DNA of 64,000 nt. It comes from Halorhabdus rudnickae (GTDB lineage: Archaea > Halobacteriota > Halobacteria > Halobacteriales > Haloarculaceae). The stretch lies in NCBI RefSeq assembly GCF_900880625.1, contig NZ_CAAHFB010000001.1, positions 2,108,001 through 2,172,000 of the forward strand. Reading direction: 5' to 3'. The position numbers were made by a program, and so were the translations under genes. Below the pieces are notes generated by a model, which saw only the letters and a program-made list of their open reading frames with translations, was not told the DNA's origin and did no database searches. Below, piece by piece: positions 50,989 to 63,858 of this stretch (position 1 is its first letter; each line of letters opens with the position of its first letter).

Positions 50989-52272
50989 ATGACCTCACAG
51001 CCTTTTCGGGACGGAACCGACGCGTCGTACGTCGTGGTCGGCGACGGTATCGCCGGCAGCTCGGCGGCGGCCGAACTCGCTGACCGAACAACTGACGCCT
51101 CGATCACAGTGGTAACTGGCGAATCCGAGCCCCTCTACAATCGGATCCTGATCAAGGAGTTCGCCAAGGGAGCTCTGTCGGCGGACGTCGTCCGCATGCA
51201 TGATCGATCGTGGTATGACGACCGCGACATCGACCTCCGCCTCGGCACGCGCGTCGAGACCGTCGACACCACGGCACAAGTCCTCGAGATAGAGTCCGGC
51301 GAGTCGATCGCCTACGACGAGTTGCTCGTTGCGACCGGGAGCACACCGCGGCCGTTGCCGGTCGAAAACGCTGACGCCGACGGTGTGACCACGTTCTGGA
51401 CGATCGAGGACGCCGCTCAGATTCGACAGAACGCTGCTAGGGCCGAACACAACGTGATCGTCGGTGGTGGCCTGCTGGGGATCGACTATGCTGCCATCGC
51501 CGCCGCCCAGGACATCAACTCTCACTACCTCATCCGGGAGGGACACTGGTTCTCGGGAGCTCTCTCAGAAACCGGCGCAGAAATCGTTCACGAAGCGCTA
51601 CGTGAGCGTGGTGTGACGCCTGTTGTCGAGACCGAGGTCAGTCGCTTCGAGACCGACGACGCTGGACAGCTCCGTGCAGCAATCACATCGGATGGCCGTC
51701 GATACGAGGCCGATTGTGCCGGCGTCGCCATCGGGACGACGCCGAACACGGGCCTGCTTGAGGAGACGCCGGTCGCCCTCGAGGATGGCGTCGTCGTCGA
51801 TGAGACGCTGTCGGCGGACGTCCCGTCAGTGTGGGCGGCGGGTGATGTCGCTCGCTACGATGACCCTCGACTCGGGCGACACGTCAGCAACGGTACCTGG
51901 GGAAGTGCGGCTGCACAGGGTGAGTTGGCCGCTCGGAACATGCTCGCCGCGCCCGACGCGGCAGCGCCCTTCGAGTACGTCCCGTCCTATTCGGTTTCGC
52001 ACTTCGAGTTTCCACTCGCGTCGTTCGGTCACCCGCGACTCGGGGACACCTATCACGAACGCCGGTACGGCGATCGGGAGTGGCGGCGACTCGCTTTCCG
52101 GGATGGCCAGCTCGTCGGTGGCGTCTTGATCGGCGATCGCGAGCCACTTCAGGCGTACAAGCAACTCACTGCCAGCGGTCGCCACGTGCAACAACAGGTC
52201 CAGCAGTTGCTCGCCCCGTCCTTTGATGGGACCGACTTCGAGCGTCAGTCCTCGCCGCTGGCCTCGGACTAA
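50989..52272 (+). CDS. FAD-dependent NAD(P)H oxidoreductase, copy 1 (NirB/rubredoxin-reductase-like fold)
   Basis: A 427-residue flavoprotein with two Rossmann folds: an N-terminal FAD motif VVVGDGIAGSSAAAEL, an NAD(P)H-binding VGGGLLGIDYAAIA (about 158-171) and the second FAD contact VWAAGDVARYDD. This is the pyridine-nucleotide-disulfide-reductase class II type (NADH oxidase, rubredoxin reductase, nitrite reductase NirB N-terminal part); no redox-active cysteine pair or added iron-sulphur domain is visible. The C-terminal ~100 residues (HFEFPLASFGHPRLGDTYHE and GGVLIGDREPLQAYKQL) form the dimer domain. It has a close second copy at 60803, including upstream DNA. The electron acceptor is unknown. 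Confidence 0.88.
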   Translation: MTSQPFRDGTDASYVVVGDGIAGSSAAAELADRTTDASITVVTGESEPLYNRILIKEFAKGALSADVVRMHDRSWYDDRDIDLRLGTRVETVDTTAQVLEIESGESIAYDELLVATGSTPRPLPVENADADGVTTFWTIEDAAQIRQNAARAEHNVIVGGGLLGIDYAAIAAAQDINSHYLIREGHWFSGALSETGAEIVHEALRERGVTPVVETEVSRFETDDAGQLRAAITSDGRRYEADCAGVAIGTTPNTGLLEETPVALEDGVVVDETLSADVPSVWAAGDVARYDDPRLGRHVSNGTWGSAAAQGELAARNMLAAPDAAAPFEYVPSYSVSHFEFPLASFGHPRLGDTYHERRYGDREWRRLAFRDGQLVGGVLIGDREPLQAYKQLTASGRHVQQQVQQLLAPSFDGTDFERQSSPLASD

Positions 52273-52321: not shown

Positions 52322-53030
52322 TCAGGTGGCGTCGACCTGCTCGCTCGCGCGTGCGTCGAGCGTTTCGGTCGCTTGTGTAAGCAGCGCGTCGATGATCTCG
52401 GGCGTCGTCGGGTGGTAGGCCCGGTTGGGAATTACCGGACATTCAGTTCCATCTCGACGGCCAGTTGCATCGTCTTAGCCATGGCGTCGGCGTGATAGTG
52501 CAGGCCCTGATAGCCCAGCAGGGTGCCGCCCGTGCCGACGACGAGACGCGCTCGCCCCTCGGGGACGTCTTTGGCCTTGACAATGCCGTCGTCCGCAGCG
52601 GTGGTATCGACCGTCACGTCCTCGATGCCGGCCGCCGTGGCTGACTCCTCAGAGTATCCGACACGAACGAACGGCAGCCGACCCAGCGTCGAAAAGATGA
52701 CGTGATGGTGGACGGGCTGGTGGGTTTCGAGTAATTTCCCAGTGCGGTGGGCCTGGATGTTGGTGGCTGCCGTCTTGGTCTGGTGCTTTCCGACGTGCAC
52801 GATCGGCTCACGGCCGTTGACATCGCCAACGACGAACACATGCTTCTTCGCGGGCGTGCTCGTCATCGACAACGAAAACGGACGCTTTGGGTTCCTCGAA
52901 GCCGGCGGGAGCGTCAACTGTCTCGGCGGCGATATTGGCGGAATCGGTGCGCTCGGCTCGGCGATCGTCCAGAACCCGGACGACGCACTCCAGGAGAGGG
53001 CGGACGGGCTGGCGAACGTTGACATCGAGT
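52322..53030 (-). pseudogene. broken dihydrolipoamide dehydrogenase/mercuric-reductase-like gene
   Basis: The C-terminal dimerisation part of a class I pyridine-nucleotide-disulfide oxidoreductase. HVFVVGDVNGREPIVHVGKH, then VGYSEESATAAGIEDVTVDT and RLVVGTGGTLLGYQGLHYHA are family-typical. At about 52432-52436 the frame shifts: NVR is followed by a stop, while the -1/+1 frame continues RAYHPTTPEIIDALL to a stop at 52322. A second frame change seems to occur near 52855, upstream of which fragments such as TDSANIAAETVDAPAGFEEP appear. The FAD-binding N-terminal half and the CxxxxC motif are missing. It converges with the first FAD oxidoreductase gene. Confidence 0.75.
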
Positions 53031-54389: not shown

Positions 54390-54555
54390 TTGCTTTCGAT
54401 CAGCTGATTGTACAAACAAATACTCGCCACCCCAGTATTACGGGCGTTTATAATAGATAGGTGGGGCATGGTATCACTTCACATGTAATAACTCGGCAAT
54501 CAGTATTACTGAAGATCGAAAAAGTATTATTCTACGATCGAGTACCTCGCTGTTG

Positions 54556-55665
54556 ATGCGAACCCGACGATCGGTACTCAGCGCACTTGGGGCCAGCACT
54601 GTGGGAGGACTCACAGGCTGTACCGCGTCGTTTTCGGCGTCGAGTGGTGGGACGACCACGGCCGCTCGCGAAATCACGGACGGGTTCGGTCGGTCGGTGA
54701 CCGTTCCGGAGACGGTCGAGCGCGTCGTTGGCGTCGGGCCGGGCGCCCTCCGACAGATCGCCTATCTGGACGCCACCGACCGCGTGGTCGGTATCGAAGA
54801 CGCAGAGGCTGGCTGGGCGAGACGTGTGCCGTACAACCAGGCCAACCCCGTGTTACGAGACAAGCACGTGATCGGTTCGGCCGGCCCCTCTGCTGGGGGC
54901 AACAGTGAAGCCATTCTTTCAGTCGACCCGGACGTACTCTTCTATTATGGGGACAGCTCTCGGGCGGAGTCGTTGCAGTCTCAGACGGACACACCGGTTG
55001 TCGGTCTCGATATCGTCGACTTCGTCTATCCGGCCGCTCGCGAAACGATGTTCGGCACCTGGCAGCTCGTCGGCGACGTGCTGGGCCAAGACGGGCGGGC
55101 CGAGACACTGATCGAGTTCGTCCGTGGGACGATCGACGACCTCCGGACACGGACGGACGAGATCGCAGTCGGCGAGCGAGACGCTGCGTACGTCGGCGCG
55201 ATCAACTACAAGGGGGGCCACGGCATCGCGACGACACGAAAGTGCTTCGCGCCGTTTCGCTGGACCGGTGTCGAGAACGTCGCCGGCGCGATCGGTACCG
55301 ACGCCGCGTCCGTCGAGGTGAGCGACGAACAGCTCCTTCGGTGGGATCCAGCGACGATGTTCGTCAGTGCGTCAAACCTCGGCCAGGTCCGCGAGGACGC
55401 GGCCGCGAGCCCTGAGTATGCCTCGATCCGAGCGGTCGAGACCGGCGAGACGTATTCGATTCTCCCGCACGCCAGCTATCACCACAACTATGGATCGATC
55501 CTCGCGAACGCCTATTTCGTCGGGCGTACAGTCTATCCTGACCGCTTCGAGGATGTCGATCTCAAGACAAAGACGAACGAGATTTTCGAGACGATGCTCG
55601 GTACGGGTTTGTACGAGAATCTGCTCGAAGCCTACGACGCGTTCGACCGACTCGAATTGCCATGA
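54556..55665 (+). CDS. TroA/BtuF-like ABC substrate-binding lipoprotein
   Basis: A 369-residue solute-binding protein. It begins MRTRRSVLSALGASTVGGLT with a twin-arginine (RR) and lipobox GLTGC (Cys near 22), so it is exported and lipid-anchored. The body has the class III pattern: ITDGFGRSVTVPETVERVVG, DPDVLFYYGDSS and later an AYVGAINYKGGHGIATTRKC segment typical of archaeal metal-complex binding proteins (iron, cobalamin or molybdate/tungstate-type). ATG 54556 is used; an overlapping TTG is just upstream. The next gene's ATG overlaps its stop (ATGA), so the transporter is an operon. Confidence 0.88.
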   Translation: MRTRRSVLSALGASTVGGLTGCTASFSASSGGTTTAAREITDGFGRSVTVPETVERVVGVGPGALRQIAYLDATDRVVGIEDAEAGWARRVPYNQANPVLRDKHVIGSAGPSAGGNSEAILSVDPDVLFYYGDSSRAESLQSQTDTPVVGLDIVDFVYPAARETMFGTWQLVGDVLGQDGRAETLIEFVRGTIDDLRTRTDEIAVGERDAAYVGAINYKGGHGIATTRKCFAPFRWTGVENVAGAIGTDAASVEVSDEQLLRWDPATMFVSASNLGQVREDAAASPEYASIRAVETGETYSILPHASYHHNYGSILANAYFVGRTVYPDRFEDVDLKTKTNEIFETMLGTGLYENLLEAYDAFDRLELP

Positions 55666-56711
55666 CAGAGACCGCTGTGGCGGGTCATCAAAGATCGTTC
55701 CGTCGACGAGTCGCCTTTCTCGGCGGTGTCGGCGCTCTGTTTGCCGGTACCGCCCTGCTGGCGCTGGCGATCGGCTCCGTTCGCGTTCCGCTGGTTGATT
55801 TGTTTGGGGCTCTGTTCGGCCGCGGCACGGAACTGCATTCCAACATCGTCTGGCGAAATCGCTTACCGCGGGTCCTCGCCGCTGCCGCGGCCGGCGGTGG
55901 TCTGGCCGTCGCGGGAGCGGCGATGCAGACCGTCCTCCGCAATCCGCTCGGCGCGCCATACACGCTTGGTATCTCCCAGGCGGCGGCCTTCGGGGCCGCA
56001 CTGGCGATTTCCATCACTGGCGTGGGGGCGGGGTCGGCGGCCGGTGGGTTCCTCGCGACGTCTCTGACACCGATCGCCGCGTTTGTCGCAGGGATGGTCT
56101 TGACGGGCGTCATTCTCGCGTTGGTCACGTATCGGCGGGCCACACCCGAAACGATGATCCTCACCGGCGTCGCACTCGGGTCGCTGTTCCAGGCTGGGTT
56201 GACGCTGTTGCAGTACTTCGCCAGTGATACCGAGGTCGCGGCCATCGTTTATTGGACGTTCGGCGATGTCGGACGGGTTGGCTGGCCGAAGGTGCTCGTG
56301 ATGCTCGCGTTCGTCCTTGCGGCGACCGCATACTTCGTTCGACACGGCTGGGATTACGACGTGCTCGATGCGGGAACGGACACGGCAAAGAGCCTCGGGG
56401 TGAACGTCGAATCGCTACGGATTCGCGGGATGGCAGTTGCTTCGATCGTCACTGCACTAATTGTTTCTTTTGTGGGAATTATTGGCTTCGTCGGGCTGGT
56501 TGCCCCCCACATCGTCCGGATGGTTATCGGCGGTACGGAGCGCACGCTCATGCCGGCCTCGGCGCTGGTCGGAGCGACCCTGCTTGTCGCGGCCGATACG
56601 ATCGCCCGGACGGTGCTTGCGCCGGTGGTGTTACCGGTCGGGATTCTCACGTCGTTCATCGGTGCGCCGCTGTTTATCTATCTCGTCCTCAGGGGGAGGG
56701 AATACTGGTGA
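55662..56711 (+). CDS. FecCD/BtuC-family ABC permease
   Basis: A 349-residue permease with about nine to ten helices. Characteristic sequences are VWRNRLPRVLAAAAAGGGLA near 65, NPLGAPYTLGISQAAAFGAA and the C-terminal GFVGLVAPHIVRMVIGGTER. Such permeases import iron-siderophore, heme, cobalamin or metal chelates. It starts inside the binding-protein stop and its own stop overlaps the GTG of the ATPase gene. Confidence 0.95.
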   Translation: MTETAVAGHQRSFRRRVAFLGGVGALFAGTALLALAIGSVRVPLVDLFGALFGRGTELHSNIVWRNRLPRVLAAAAAGGGLAVAGAAMQTVLRNPLGAPYTLGISQAAAFGAALAISITGVGAGSAAGGFLATSLTPIAAFVAGMVLTGVILALVTYRRATPETMILTGVALGSLFQAGLTLLQYFASDTEVAAIVYWTFGDVGRVGWPKVLVMLAFVLAATAYFVRHGWDYDVLDAGTDTAKSLGVNVESLRIRGMAVASIVTALIVSFVGIIGFVGLVAPHIVRMVIGGTERTLMPASALVGATLLVAADTIARTVLAPVVLPVGILTSFIGAPLFIYLVLRGREYW

Positions 56712-57550
56712 CACTCGACATTCGGCATTTGGCGTTTGCCTACGACGACGAACGTGTCCTCGACGGGATCAACCTCACGGCCGAATCGGGCGAACTGCTC
56801 GGTCTCCTCGGGCCAAACGGGTCCGGGAAGAGTACGCTCTTAGAGTGCTGTAATCGGCTGCTGGAGCCTGATTCGGGAACCGTCTCCCTCGGCGGTACCT
56901 CCGTCGGCGACCTCGTGGCCGACGAACGGGCCCGTCGAATCGGATACGTCCCGCAGGCGGAATCCCGGGCGTTTCCGGCCTCGGTCTTCGAGACGATCCT
57001 GCAGGGACGACGGCCCCACGGTGGATGGACGCCGAGCGATAGCGACCGGGCGGCCGTCGAGGCGACGATCGATCGACTCGACCTCGACGGACTGGCGACC
57101 CGAAACGTGGGCGACCTCTCCGGGGGGCAGCGTCAGAAGGTCTGCCTCGGGCGGGCGCTCGTGGGCGATCCGTCGGTCCTGTTGCTCGACGAGCCGACAA
57201 GCGCGCTCGACCTGAAACACCGCCTGGATGTCATGGACCGCATCCTCGGTGAAGTCCGAGACGGGGTTGCGGGCTTGATCGCAATTCACGACCTGAACCT
57301 GGCGGCCCGCTACTGCGATCGGGTTGCGCTCCTCTCAGACGGCCGGGTCTACGCCGTGGGCGAACCAGACGTACTCACGCCCGAGACAGTCCGGGCGGTC
57401 TACGACGTCGAGGCAAGCGTCCGCGAGCACGGCGATCGGCGACTTGTCGTCCCCGAATCGCCGGTCGATCGCGAACCCGGGGGTTCACCAGCGCTGGACC
57501 GACCGGCTGACACCTCCGTGGCGGGCGAACCGGTGGCGACTGACGACTAA
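56708..57550 (+). CDS. FecE/BtuD-like ABC ATPase
   Basis: A 280-residue ATPase. GTG 56708 (GTGA overlap with the permease stop) is the start; a longer reading frame upstream is only a shadow of the permease. It has Walker A GPNGSGKST (35-43), Q-loop, signature LSGGQRQK (about 138-145), Walker B VLLLDEPTSALD and H-loop IHDLNLAARYCD. It powers the permease. The C-terminal tail is Pro/Asp-rich. Confidence 0.95.
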   Translation: MTLDIRHLAFAYDDERVLDGINLTAESGELLGLLGPNGSGKSTLLECCNRLLEPDSGTVSLGGTSVGDLVADERARRIGYVPQAESRAFPASVFETILQGRRPHGGWTPSDSDRAAVEATIDRLDLDGLATRNVGDLSGGQRQKVCLGRALVGDPSVLLLDEPTSALDLKHRLDVMDRILGEVRDGVAGLIAIHDLNLAARYCDRVALLSDGRVYAVGEPDVLTPETVRAVYDVEASVREHGDRRLVVPESPVDREPGGSPALDRPADTSVAGEPVATDD

Positions 57551-57564
57551 CTGAGCGTGATACG

Positions 57565-58695
57565 ATGGATGACCCCCTGACACAGATCGGGACGGTGCAC
57601 AGCGCCTTCGAGGAACCAGCCGATCCGGACGAGATGCGTTCTCGGGAGAGTACGATCGTCGTCGATCCCGACTACGAGGCGGGCCTCTACCGGATCGAGG
57701 ACACCGACCACCTCAAGATCGTCTTTTTCCTCCACGAGGCCGACGAGCCGACGCTCCGGGGTCCCCGGCGCTATGGCGTCGAACGCGGGACCTTCGCCTG
57801 CCGAAGTCCCAATCGACCGAGTCCGATCGGGACCACGACCGTCGAGTTACTTGAGCGAGACGGCCGGCAACTGCGCGTCTCCGGTCTCGACGCTATCGAC
57901 GGGACGCCCGTGCTTGACATCAAGCCTTACGCGCCGAGTTTAGACCAACCGGACACCGTGGACGAAGACCGCCGTACAACCCCCCGTGGGCGAGTCGAAC
58001 GGGCGATTCGCAATCGTAGCCACAGGGAACTTCTGCTCCGTACCGGCGAGATCCACGGGCATTTGTGTCCGTATCTCGCGCTGGGTGTGATGGCCGGGGT
58101 CCACGCGATGCGGGAACTCGGGGCGACCAGCGAGGGGATGGAGGATCTTGTGGCCGTCGTCGAGACGAACAGTTGCTTCGCCGACGGTGTCCAGTACGTG
58201 ACGGGCTGTACGTTCGGGAATAATGCGCTGATCTATCGTGATTACGGCAAGACTGCTGTGACGCTCGTCTCACGGGACGACCCCGACGACGGCGTCCGAA
58301 TCCACGTCCGCGAGCGCGAGGGGATCATCGAGCGGGACTATCCCGAGGCCAGCGAGTTGTTCGAGCGGGTCGTCAGCGAGCGTGAGGGGACGCCCGTGGA
58401 GCGTGAGCGCCTCGACGAACGGTGGGCCGAGGTTGCGTTCGACCTGATCGAGCGCCCAATCTTTGACTGCTGTGACGTCGAGACGGGCGTGTCGGTCGCC
58501 CTCCCCGAGAAGGCGCCGATCTTCGAGGACGCCGTCTGTTCTGATTGTGGGGAGCAGGTCATGGCTCCCAAAACGGTCGAGCGCGACGGCGAGCAATACT
58601 GTCGGGGGTGTGTCGACGTGCCGTACTGCCACCTGGACGGGCGCGGACTGAGTCGAATCGAGGCTTCTGAATCCTCTATCGGCCACCCACAGTAA
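57565..58695 (+). CDS. TrmO-like (TsaA) domain fused to FmdE-like domain
   Basis: A 376-residue two-domain protein. Residues 1-140 match TrmO/TsaA, the tRNA t6A37 N6-methyltransferase fold: IVFFLHEAD, RGTFACRSPNRPSPIGTTTV, then LDAIDGTPVLDIKPYAPSLD. Residues 150-310 match FmdE (formylmethanofuran dehydrogenase subunit E family): LLRTGEIHGHLCPYLALGVM, TNSCFADGVQYVTGCTFGNN. The end is a zinc-ribbon-like CSDCGEQV ... YCRGCVDVPYC. FmdE proteins bind metal, and their role outside methanogens is not known. It is 14 nt after the ABC ATPase, so it is probably co-transcribed and linked to whatever the transporter imports. Confidence 0.85.
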   Translation: MDDPLTQIGTVHSAFEEPADPDEMRSRESTIVVDPDYEAGLYRIEDTDHLKIVFFLHEADEPTLRGPRRYGVERGTFACRSPNRPSPIGTTTVELLERDGRQLRVSGLDAIDGTPVLDIKPYAPSLDQPDTVDEDRRTTPRGRVERAIRNRSHRELLLRTGEIHGHLCPYLALGVMAGVHAMRELGATSEGMEDLVAVVETNSCFADGVQYVTGCTFGNNALIYRDYGKTAVTLVSRDDPDDGVRIHVREREGIIERDYPEASELFERVVSEREGTPVERERLDERWAEVAFDLIERPIFDCCDVETGVSVALPEKAPIFEDAVCSDCGEQVMAPKTVERDGEQYCRGCVDVPYCHLDGRGLSRIEASESSIGHPQ

Positions 58696-60802: not shown

Positions 60803-62086
60803 ATGATATCACAGCCTGTTCGAGACGAAACCGACGCGTCGTACGTCGTGGTCGGCGATGGTATCGCCGGCAGTTCGGCAGCGGCAGAACTGTCCGACCG
60901 GACGACCAACGCTTCGATCACGGTAGTGACTGGCGAATCGGAGCCACTCTACAACCGGATTCTGATCAAGGAGTTCGCCAAAGGGACGCTGTCGGCGGAC
61001 GTCGTCCGAATGCACGACCGATCGTGGTACGACGACCGCGACATCGACCTCCGCCTCGGCACACGCGTCGAAGCTGTCGATACCGCCGCCCAGGTCCTCG
61101 AAACCGAGGCCGGCAAGTCGATCGCTTACGACGAGTTGCTGATTGCGACCGGGAGCACACCGCGGTCGTTACCGGTCGAGAACGCCGACGCCGACGGCGT
61201 CACCACGTTCTGGACGATCGAGGACGCCGAGGAGATTCGGCAGAACGCTGCTAGGGCCGAACACAACGTGATCGTCGGCGGCGGCCTGCTGGGGATCGAC
61301 TACGCTGCCATCGCCGCCGCCCAGGACATCGACGCTCACTACCTCATTCGGGAGGGCCACTGGTTCTCGGGCGCCCTCTCGGAAACTGGTGCCGAGATCG
61401 TTCACGAGGCCTTGCGCGAGCGTGGCGTGACGCCCGTCGTCGAGACCGAGGTCAGTCGCTTCGAGACCGACGACGCTGGGCACCTCCGTGCCGCAATCGC
61501 ATCGGATGGCCGCCGATACGAGGCCGATTGTGCCGGCGTCGCCATCGGGACGACGCCGAACACGGGCTTGCTCGAGGAGACGCCAGTCCCCCTCGAAGAT
61601 GGCATCGTCGTCGACGAGACGCTTCAGACGGACGTCCCGTCGGTGTGGGCGGCGGGTGACGTGGCTCGTTACGACGACCCTCGGCTCGGGCGACACGTCA
61701 GCAACGGGTCCTGGGGGAGTGCGGCTGCTCAGGGTGAATTGGCCGCCCGGAACATGCTCGCCGCGCCCGACGCGAGAGCGCCCTTCGAGTACGTCCCGTC
61801 CTATTCGGTCTCCCATTTCGAATTTCCACTCGCGTCGTTCGGTCACCCGCGCCTCGGCGACACCTATCACGAACGCCGGTACGGCGATCGGGAGTGGCGA
61901 CGACTCGCCTTCCGTGACGGCCAACTCGTCGGTGGCGTGTTGATCGGGGATCGTGAGCCACTCCAGGCGTACAAACAACTCACTGCTAGCGGTCGCCACG
62001 TTCACCACCAGGTCCAGCAGTTGCTCGCCCCCTCCTTCGATGGAACCGTCTTCGAGCGCCAGTCCTCGCCGCTGGCCTCGGACTGA
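60803..62086 (+). CDS. FAD-dependent NAD(P)H oxidoreductase, copy 2
   Basis: A 427-residue flavoprotein of the same length as, and nearly identical to, the protein at 50989. It keeps VVVGDGIAGSSAAAEL, VGGGLLGIDYAAIA and VWAAGDVARYDD. Differences are scattered and mostly conservative, for example EIRQN for QIRQN, and HVHHQVQQLL for HVQQQVQQLL. Both copies look functional. The copy lies after the MFS gene and converges with the ECF transporter. Either a recent duplication or gene conversion keeps the two alike. Its substrate is unknown. Confidence 0.88.
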   Translation: MISQPVRDETDASYVVVGDGIAGSSAAAELSDRTTNASITVVTGESEPLYNRILIKEFAKGTLSADVVRMHDRSWYDDRDIDLRLGTRVEAVDTAAQVLETEAGKSIAYDELLIATGSTPRSLPVENADADGVTTFWTIEDAEEIRQNAARAEHNVIVGGGLLGIDYAAIAAAQDIDAHYLIREGHWFSGALSETGAEIVHEALRERGVTPVVETEVSRFETDDAGHLRAAIASDGRRYEADCAGVAIGTTPNTGLLEETPVPLEDGIVVDETLQTDVPSVWAAGDVARYDDPRLGRHVSNGSWGSAAAQGELAARNMLAAPDARAPFEYVPSYSVSHFEFPLASFGHPRLGDTYHERRYGDREWRRLAFRDGQLVGGVLIGDREPLQAYKQLTASGRHVHHQVQQLLAPSFDGTVFERQSSPLASD

Positions 62087-62107: not shown

Positions 62108-63052
62108 TCAGTCGTCGGAGGCGGCGACAGCACGCCTGGTCTTGTTCGCCCCGTCGCCCAGGTGATCGACGAGTTCGGCCTCGGTGACCGGCGGTCGATC
62201 ACTCGCGTCCAGGCCGACATCGCGAGCGATCCGAACCGGCGTCGGCGGTGTGAGGTTCGCCCGATCGAGCAGGGCGTCGTCGTAAAACACCTCGCGTGGG
62301 GTGCCGCCGCCGATCGCGTTGCCGTCGGCCATCACGCAGACCCGATCGGCCAGATCGGCGGCCGTATCGAGGTCGTGCGTCGAGAGGACGACGCTGATCC
62401 CTTCCTCGGCGCGAATGTCGCGCAAGCGCTCGGCAACCATCGCCGAGCGCTCGGGATCCAGCCCCGCGAACGGCTCGTCTAACACGATCACGCTCGGTTC
62501 CATGGCGAGGACGCCAGCGAGCCCCACGAGGCGCTTTTCGCCGCCGCTGAGGTAATGCGGGATCCGTTCTTCGAGATGGCTCGCGCCGACCGACGCCAGT
62601 GCGTCACGGGCGCGTTCGAGCGCCCCCTCGCCGGTCACGCCGTGGTTGTTGAGACCAAAGGCCACGTCGTCGACTACCGTCGGCGCGACCAGTTGTGTGT
62701 CCGGGTCCTGGAAGACGAATCCGACTTCCGAGCGGGCTAACTCGCGATTCTCGTCTGTGATCTCGGTACCGTGGACGACGAGCCGTCCCTCGTCGGGGAC
62801 CAGCGTTGCGTTGAGGTGTTCGAGACAGGTCGATTTCCCGGAGCCGTTACCGCCGACGACGGCGACAATTTCCTCTGGATAGACGCTGAACTCGATGTCG
62901 TGGACCCCGACGGTCCCGTCGGGATAGGTGTGTGACTGGCATTCGAGGTCTATTAGTGGCGTGTCATCGGTCATGGATTCGTCGGTCGTATCTGTGGCTC
63001 GGTAGGCGGACTGGATGTCGGTCGCTCCATCGGTTGTGTCGTCGTTGCTCAT
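62108..63052 (-). CDS. ECF/cobalt-type transporter ATPase (CbiO-like)
   Basis: A 314-residue ATPase. Walker A is GGNGSGKST (near 70-78), Q-loop FVFQDPDTQLVAPTV (the DPD-Q variant typical of CbiO/EcfA), signature YLSGGEKRLVGL, Walker B VIVLDEPFAGLDP and H-loop STHDLDT. An N-terminal hydrophilic extension of ~32 residues precedes the domain, but the start at 63052 is supported by the ATGA overlap with the upstream CbiQ gene. Internal ATG at residue 27 is an alternative. It energises import of cobalt, nickel or a vitamin with CbiQ. Confidence 0.93.
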   Translation of the reverse strand: MSNDDTTDGATDIQSAYRATDTTDESMTDDTPLIDLECQSHTYPDGTVGVHDIEFSVYPEEIVAVVGGNGSGKSTCLEHLNATLVPDEGRLVVHGTEITDENRELARSEVGFVFQDPDTQLVAPTVVDDVAFGLNNHGVTGEGALERARDALASVGASHLEERIPHYLSGGEKRLVGLAGVLAMEPSVIVLDEPFAGLDPERSAMVAERLRDIRAEEGISVVLSTHDLDTAADLADRVCVMADGNAIGGGTPREVFYDDALLDRANLTPPTPVRIARDVGLDASDRPPVTEAELVDHLGDGANKTRRAVAASDD

Positions 63053-63858
63053 GCGAGCACCCCCATGCTGGTTAGCACGTACGCGGCAACGAGCCCATAG
63101 GCCGCGAGGACGGCCGCCAGTTCGAGCAGCGACGGTCTCGGAATCGCACTGTTCATGGCGATGTCGCCGTCATATCCGCGGGCCTCCATCGAGGCGACGA
63201 GTCGTTCGGAGCGCTCGATCGCGGTCAGCATCGTCATTCCCAGCATGCGGGCGTAGAGGCCCCGGTTCGACCAGAACGTTGAGAGCGTCGCGCCGCGTGC
63301 CTGGGCCGCCTTGACGAGATCTTCGAGCGTTTCGAGCATGACGAACGTGAACCGGTAGGTCAACAGCGCGACCTGATCGATCGGACTCGGGAAGAGTCGA
63401 TCGAGGACCGTCGCGACGTCGGCGTACCGGGTCGTCATCGCCGTCGCGAGCACGAACGTGACGACCGTCAACGAGCGAGCGGCGAGTTCGACGACGAGCG
63501 TCGCCCCTGTCCAGGTGACTGAGAGACCGCCCAGTGGCGTCTCCAGGATGCCCCCGATCGGTGTCCCGGGTTCCATGATCAGCAGTGGCCCGCCGATGGA
63601 AACGACGAACAACGTGGGCAGGGTGAACCACCCGAGGAGCCGTCGAACCGGCAGGCCAGCCCCCACGTAGGCGACCAGGACCGCGCCGTAGAGACCGACC
63701 AGCGGGACGAGGTCCTCGAGGATCGTCACTGCCAGGACGAGCGCCCCAAGCAGCCCGATTTTCGTCCAGGGATTGAGTCGGTGCATCGGCCCCTCCTGGT
63801 GCTCGGCGTAGGCTGTCATCAGCCGGGGATCCGGAACGTGATTCGAGAGCGCCGTCAC
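63049..63858 (-). CDS. ECF/cobalt-type transporter transmembrane protein (CbiQ-like, EcfT)
   Basis: A 269-residue membrane protein: HRLNPWTKIGLLGALVLAVT at the N-terminus, several helices, and two Ala-Arg-Gly signatures (KAAQARGATLSTFW and ASMEARGYDGD) that couple to the ATPases. GTG 63858 is used because of its GTGA overlap with the upstream partial gene. The substrate-binding component is not fully in the window. A role in cobalt or nickel uptake is likely but biotin or another vitamin is possible. Confidence 0.92.
   Translation of the reverse strand: MTALSNHVPDPRLMTAYAEHQEGPMHRLNPWTKIGLLGALVLAVTILEDLVPLVGLYGAVLVAYVGAGLPVRRLLGWFTLPTLFVVSIGGPLLIMEPGTPIGGILETPLGGLSVTWTGATLVVELAARSLTVVTFVLATAMTTRYADVATVLDRLFPSPIDQVALLTYRFTFVMLETLEDLVKAAQARGATLSTFWSNRGLYARMLGMTMLTAIERSERLVASMEARGYDGDIAMNSAIPRPSLLELAAVLAAYGLVAAYVLTSMGVLA

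Follow-up and report, generated by a model that had tools for sequence, protein, structure and literature searches.

Which compound does an importer carry when its operon ends in a gene joining a TrmO domain to an FmdE domain, and what does the joined protein do? This question is raised by a locus in the 64,000-nucleotide stretch of Halorhabdus rudnickae DNA analysed here (the window). The importer is complete in gene content, with binding protein, membrane permease and ATPase all encoded in one operon. Together with the fusion they form a single tight operon (54556-58695), in which two 4-nt overlaps are followed by a 14-nt gap before the fusion gene, exactly the spacing that the original prediction had given. 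The features of this module, and those of a NikR-NikMNQO operon that lies nearby, are as follows:

54503-54530, plus strand: 28-bp box GTATTAC-N14-GTATTAT, a candidate NikR operator over the BRE/TATA region (CGAAAAAGTATTAT), 25 nt before the ATG
54556-55665, plus strand: binding-protein lipoprotein (SBP; PF01497, Peripla_BP_2; Pfam 9e-18), a predicted extracellular metal-complex binder of Tat type
55662-56711, plus strand: FecCD-type permease (PF01032; Pfam 6.4e-90)
56708-57550, plus strand: ABC ATPase of the importer (PF00005; Pfam 7.4e-33)
57565-58695, plus strand: TrmO-FmdE-zinc finger fusion of 376 aa (Pfam, AlphaFold2, Foldseek)
57616-57945, plus strand: TrmO_N beta-barrel domain of the fusion (aa 18-127; Pfam 1e-29)
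58051-58458, plus strand: FmdE domain of the fusion (PF02663; aa 163-298; Pfam 7e-39)
58522-58611, plus strand: C-terminal Cys4 zinc finger of the fusion (zf-dskA_traR; aa 320-349; Pfam 3e-6; Cys325, Cys328, Cys346 and Cys349)
62108-63052, minus strand: CbiO/NikO-type ECF ATPase, last gene of the NikR-NikMNQO operon (profile match)
63049-63858, minus strand: CbiQ/NikQ-type ECF transmembrane protein of the same operon (PF02361, 3e-27; coordinates from locus L161)

The twin-arginine signal and lipobox Cys22 of the SBP were read from the sequence, and the Cys is kept in 35 of 38 aligned proteins. An alternative in-frame TTG start lies at 54553.

The four genes stay together across distant genomes. 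Strong FmdE matches were found in 5 of 293 genomes of the order, four of them Halorhabdus and one from another genus of the same family. In all five the order SBP-FecCD-ABC-fusion was the same, while the flanking genes were rearranged. About 16 other haloarchaea gave weak FmdE matches (E 1e-4 to 1e-7), which were left out of the comparison as members of a different subfamily. In Archaeoglobi the fusion stands directly before the same importer genes. A wider scan used contigs from a collection in which each species is represented by a single genome. Its selection criterion was TrmO patterns, the importer playing no part in it, and it yielded 34 fusion loci. Importer genes lay on the same strand and no more than 5 kb from the fusion in 27 of these 34 independent loci, which span Bacillota including Halanaerobiales, Bipolaricaulota, Spirochaetota, Bacteroidota, Archaeoglobi, Methanofastidiosia and others; the remaining seven fusions had no importer nearby, one of them at a contig edge. 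The coupling of fusion and importer proposed for the window is thus supported. Because the gene order is constant in the five haloarchaea despite changing flanks, and recurs in most fusion loci elsewhere, the arrangement is not due to chance. Several Methanomicrobiales loci have an unfused form, in the order SBP-FecCD-ABC-FmdE-TrmO. In three loci (L117, L121 and L130) FmdE is missing and the order is SBP-FecCD-ABC-TrmO; L121 also carries nikR. In the tree of fusions the haloarchaeal proteins formed one clade (100/97); deeper forks were weak. Since their identity to proteins of halophilic Halanaerobiales (48-51%), the nearest outside the archaea, exceeds that to Archaeoglobi (∼43%), the gene appears to have been exchanged between halophilic anaerobes.

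The neighbours of the module point to nickel. A nikR gene was present in 14 of the 34 fusion loci versus 1 of 25 TrmO-only loci without importer (Fisher p = 9e-4, a guide rather than an exact probability, because kinship among the species makes the samples partly dependent); these nikR counts cover the retrieved locus stretches only, and some neighbour counts are lower bounds because gene calls in GC-rich loci were mechanical. The nickel-binding domain was confirmed by Pfam in those NikR proteins that were tested. In H. amylolytica nikR directly adjoins the module, ∼60 nt away. Apart from nikR, the most recurrent neighbours include TonB receptors (in Bacteroidota loci), LarC, LarB, LarE and [NiFe] hydrogenase. 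In a methanogen-like genome (L089) the nickelochelatase gene cfbA starts 12 nt after the fusion and is followed by CfbE-like and nitrogenase-type genes, a gene set as in F430 synthesis. Halorhabdus genomes encode LarC and [NiFe] hydrogenases in which the DPCxxC nickel motif is present. [NiFe] hydrogenases are likewise encoded in three Halorhabdus genomes that lack the module, which is therefore not essential. For an ATPase beside the Archaeoglobi module, NCBIfam did not confirm an identity as CooC, and it was dropped as evidence. In H. rudnickae the nikR of the NikR-NikMNQO operon lies ∼1.1 kb past the window end. This operon encodes a second nickel importer near the module, and the genome holds two such systems.

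Control signals of the NikR type were found upstream of the module. The search used the consensus that has been published for NikR of delta-proteobacteria, GTGTTAC-N13/14-GTAACAC (PMC545781). At spacing 13 it occurred in 9 of 53 module upstreams versus 2 of 411 control upstreams, which belong to non-module genes of these loci (p = 8e-8, again a guide only). Enrichment peaked at this spacing, and some other spacings were weakly positive. E. coli-like half-sites (GTATKA-N16) showed no excess over shuffles and were replaced by the delta-proteobacterial consensus; de novo inverted repeats, sought promoter by promoter, were not uniform. The geometry of the 28-bp box in the window matches the N13/14 spacing of the published consensus (PMC545781), and its right half deviates in haloarchaea from the inverted repeat. 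The box is kept upstream of the module in four Halorhabdus genomes, and with one mismatch in genome G003. Each of the four Halorhabdus genomes holds exactly two perfect copies, one before the module and one in the gap between a second nikR and the divergent nikM, ∼30 nt before nikM; simple arithmetic at equal base frequencies gives an expectation of ∼0.05 perfect copies per genome. The promoter of the nikMNQO operon ∼10 kb from the module carries no such box. Among nine promoters compared, both half-sites were nearly invariant and the flanks variable, although part of this conservation may belong to the promoter because the box overlaps its core. The module thus combines linkage to nikR with a putative NikR operator. 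Because of the nikR and nickel-gene neighbours, the NikR-type operators and the box shared with the nikR2/nikM gap, we consider it likely that the module is a NikR-repressed importer of nickel, probably of an organic nickel complex, with the fusion as its dedicated cytosolic partner.

Other cargoes have to be weighed against nickel. If the importer carried cobalt or cobalamin, its linkage to NikR would reflect a shared control of nickel and cobalt. Among NCBIfam models, it is indeed those of corrinoid importers that give permease and ATPase their best partial matches, and TonB receptors accompany the Bacteroidota loci. Both proteins stay far under the curated cut-offs, however, so that neither reaches the level expected of the cobalamin importer BtuCDF: the permease scored 208 bits versus 334 for BtuC, the ATPase 236 versus 537 for the corrinoid ATPase, and the ATPase also missed the BtuD and FecE cut-offs. 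Cobalamin-synthesis families are absent among the recurrent neighbours listed, while the nickel-specific LarB, LarC, LarE, CfbA and hydrogenase recur. We regard a cobalt or cobalamin importer as very unlikely, although FecCD-class nickel importers can also carry cobalt, as NiuBDE of Helicobacter pylori does (PMC5140060), which makes a specificity for nickel alone less certain. The original prediction had favoured tungsten, molybdenum or a pterin compound, and FmdE does take its name from operons of Mo/W formylmethanofuran dehydrogenase. MolA, of the molybdate/tungstate importer MolBCA, is the second-best PDB match of the SBP (2.6e-12). The SBP is closer by a wide margin to TM0189 (2ETV, 1.6e-64), its nearest solved structure, the control signals are of the NikR type, and no genes for Mo/W transport or cofactors occur among the recurrent neighbours listed. 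This cargo is extremely unlikely, and NikR, the shared NikR-type box and the nickel-cofactor genes direct the assignment to nickel instead.

The fusion gene contains the only FmdE and the only TrmO of the H. rudnickae genome. Its FmdE profile score is 133 bits versus a cut-off of 22.9, and the predicted metal ligands are His164, His166, Cys168 and Cys204. This His-x-His-x-Cys plus Cys pattern is kept in 38-39 of 39 aligned fusions. In crystals of FmdE proteins the corresponding His2Cys2 site held zinc and nickel at mixed occupancy (2GLZ) or zinc (2GVI) (PMC2954224). Of the SAM-site residues described for TrmO, Gln22, Arg82, Asp111 and Lys122 in AF0241 numbering (PMC4132733), the fusions have Asp in 39/39, Lys in 39/39 and Arg in 38/39, but Gln in only 5/39. 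The window fusion retains Arg80, Asp109 and Lys120 and has Glu23 in place of Gln. An AlphaFold2 model (pLDDT 86, pTM 0.64) gave confident domains, their mutual arrangement being unreliable, and Foldseek matched the modelled domains to 2NV4 (with SAM) and 2GVI. For the C-terminal zinc domain, the closest resemblance is to the treble-clef finger of the FmdE structures 2GVI and 3D00. As the original prediction had stated for this organism, the fusion stands outside methanogenesis here, with no formylmethanofuran dehydrogenase genes adjoining the window locus.

We propose that the lipoprotein would capture the nickel complex outside the cell, and that the FecCD dimer and the ABC ATPase would carry it inward. 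The FmdE His2Cys2 site may then take up or buffer nickel, and the SAM-binding TrmO barrel may act on, or sense, the nickel ligand or its delivery. With nickel in abundance, Ni-NikR would occupy the 28-bp box over the promoter and switch the operon off. The fusion is cast as the recipient of nickel, with a presumed action on the nickel ligand, because it unites an FmdE site suited to taking up metal with a site for SAM and mostly accompanies the nickel importer. Chemistry by the TrmO domain is the weakest step of this proposal, and the loss of the SAM-site Gln in most fusions counts against the supposed role of SAM. A more specific version, in which the fusion strips nickel from the imported organic complex onto FmdE, helped by a SAM-dependent modification of the ligand in the TrmO barrel that makes it let go, is possible but rather doubtful; we know of no described counterpart of such a SAM-driven release of nickel. 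Some Archaeoglobi and Methanomicrobiales (L058, 3271-4254; L072, 8026-9087; L103, 13929-14975; L144) have a SAM methyltransferase of the PF00891 family within the importer operon or immediately behind it, which would fit chemistry on a small ligand.

Two other roles for the fusion were considered. The TrmO part could be an ordinary tRNA m6t6A methyltransferase, fused and co-transcribed by happenstance; it is the sole TrmO of the genome and narrowly passes the NCBIfam TrmO cut-off (99.5 versus 93.25). E. coli TrmO needs the DPRxxY motif of its C-terminal domain. This motif of the proven enzyme is found in none of the 39 fusions, and m6t6A is not known in archaeal tRNA, including that of a haloarchaeon with a TrmO homologue (PMC4132733). 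Genome G003 encodes a second, separate TrmO (L027, 15004-15399) a few kb from its fusion operon, and TrmO without FmdE follows the importer in the three loci named above, one of them with nikR. We thus find a plain tRNA enzyme highly improbable. The earlier suggestion that the TrmO domain acts off tRNA remains plausible. Somewhat less improbable, though still unlikely, is a role in regulating the nickel regulon or in sensing metal for it, in which the fusion, with its zinc finger, metal site and SAM site, would be neither carrier nor enzyme. We know of no reaction of the fusion, and the structure authors took the treble-clef finger and the metal site as a hint of regulation (PMC2954224). Against this, the transcriptional role is already filled by NikR, the fusion shares its transcript with the very importer whose expression it would govern, and Pfam recognised no DNA-binding domain in it apart from the small zinc finger. 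The reading as a nickel-receiving partner of the importer is preferred.

Relatives of the proposed nickel system are known in part. H. pylori NiuBDE is a FecCD-class importer with experimentally established nickel transport and a possible NikR target, its niuDE promoter having been recovered in NikR ChIP-Seq; like CeuE-FecDE of H. mustelae, also a nickel importer, it resembles the window module in its FecB/FecCD/ATPase class (PMC5140060). This likeness is one of transporter class alone, not of orthology, and the available text mentions no TrmO or FmdE partner for either system. The ECF importer NikMNQO with NikR shares nickel import and NikR control with the role proposed here, but belongs to another transporter class and lacks both an extracellular binding protein and TrmO-FmdE. 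TrmO (YaeB), the tRNA m6t6A methyltransferase, shares with the fusion the beta-barrel class VIII SAM fold and the SAM-site Arg, Asp and Lys; the fusion differs in having no DPRxxY domain, in being joined to FmdE and, in most members, in the lost SAM-site Gln.

The fusion itself is not new, and its earlier description as uncharacterised is partly outdated: the FmdE-UPF0066 architecture and a link of FmdE to metal-ion transporters were noted in 2010, in proteins with the same domains and the same His2Cys2 site (PMC2954224). The description stands in so far as no function was assigned there; the available part of that account identifies neither nickel import nor NikR nor the recurring four-gene set. 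FmdE-tRNA methyltransferase fusions of the same kind in Methanosarcinales and Archaeoglobales were interpreted as what may be a regulatory subunit of formylmethanofuran dehydrogenase (PMC11237513), a context outside which Halorhabdus and most bacterial carriers stand. What is new is the assignment of the metal, nickel; the fusion and the link between FmdE and metal transporters were already published (PMC2954224, PMC11237513). In the literature searched, which left subscription journals largely outside, no paper was found that ties the fusion, or the link of FmdE to metal transporters, to nickel import or NikR. Judged by its genes, the module stays within the known category of NikR-controlled nickel import, of which it would be a widespread form accompanied time and again by one partner protein.

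To our knowledge FmdE has had solved structures and no function since 2010, and no substrate is known for archaeal TrmO. A link of the two to nickel import makes both questions directly testable, in culturable Halorhabdus with the NikR-type box and in Halanaerobiales with the same gene set. In anaerobes of many phyla the module would be a probable source of the nickel needed for F430, hydrogenases and the Lar cofactor, and many genes annotated as iron, B12 or tRNA-modification genes could be renamed.

Several further observations were made around these loci. A third NikR of H. rudnickae (L163, contig C5, 8593-9279 and 10381-14440) lies beside genes resembling a cation diffusion facilitator and a His-rich heavy-metal P-type ATPase; read by eye, this is perhaps a nickel efflux locus. 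A Nitro_FeMo-Co protein is encoded near the module in unrelated genomes (L079, 14682-15901; also L085, L091 and L102), and in three of these loci it is paired with a metallo-beta-lactamase-like protein. On either side of the window operon lie two visibly near-identical genes for NirB-type FAD oxidoreductases (50989-52272 and 60803-62086), in the same orientation and ∼9.8 kb apart, which may mark a duplication or recombination. A frame on the minus strand (52432-53025) matches only the C-terminal part of dihydrolipoyl dehydrogenase and is probably a gene remnant; its intact relatives adjoin nikR just past the window end and are also found in sister genomes.
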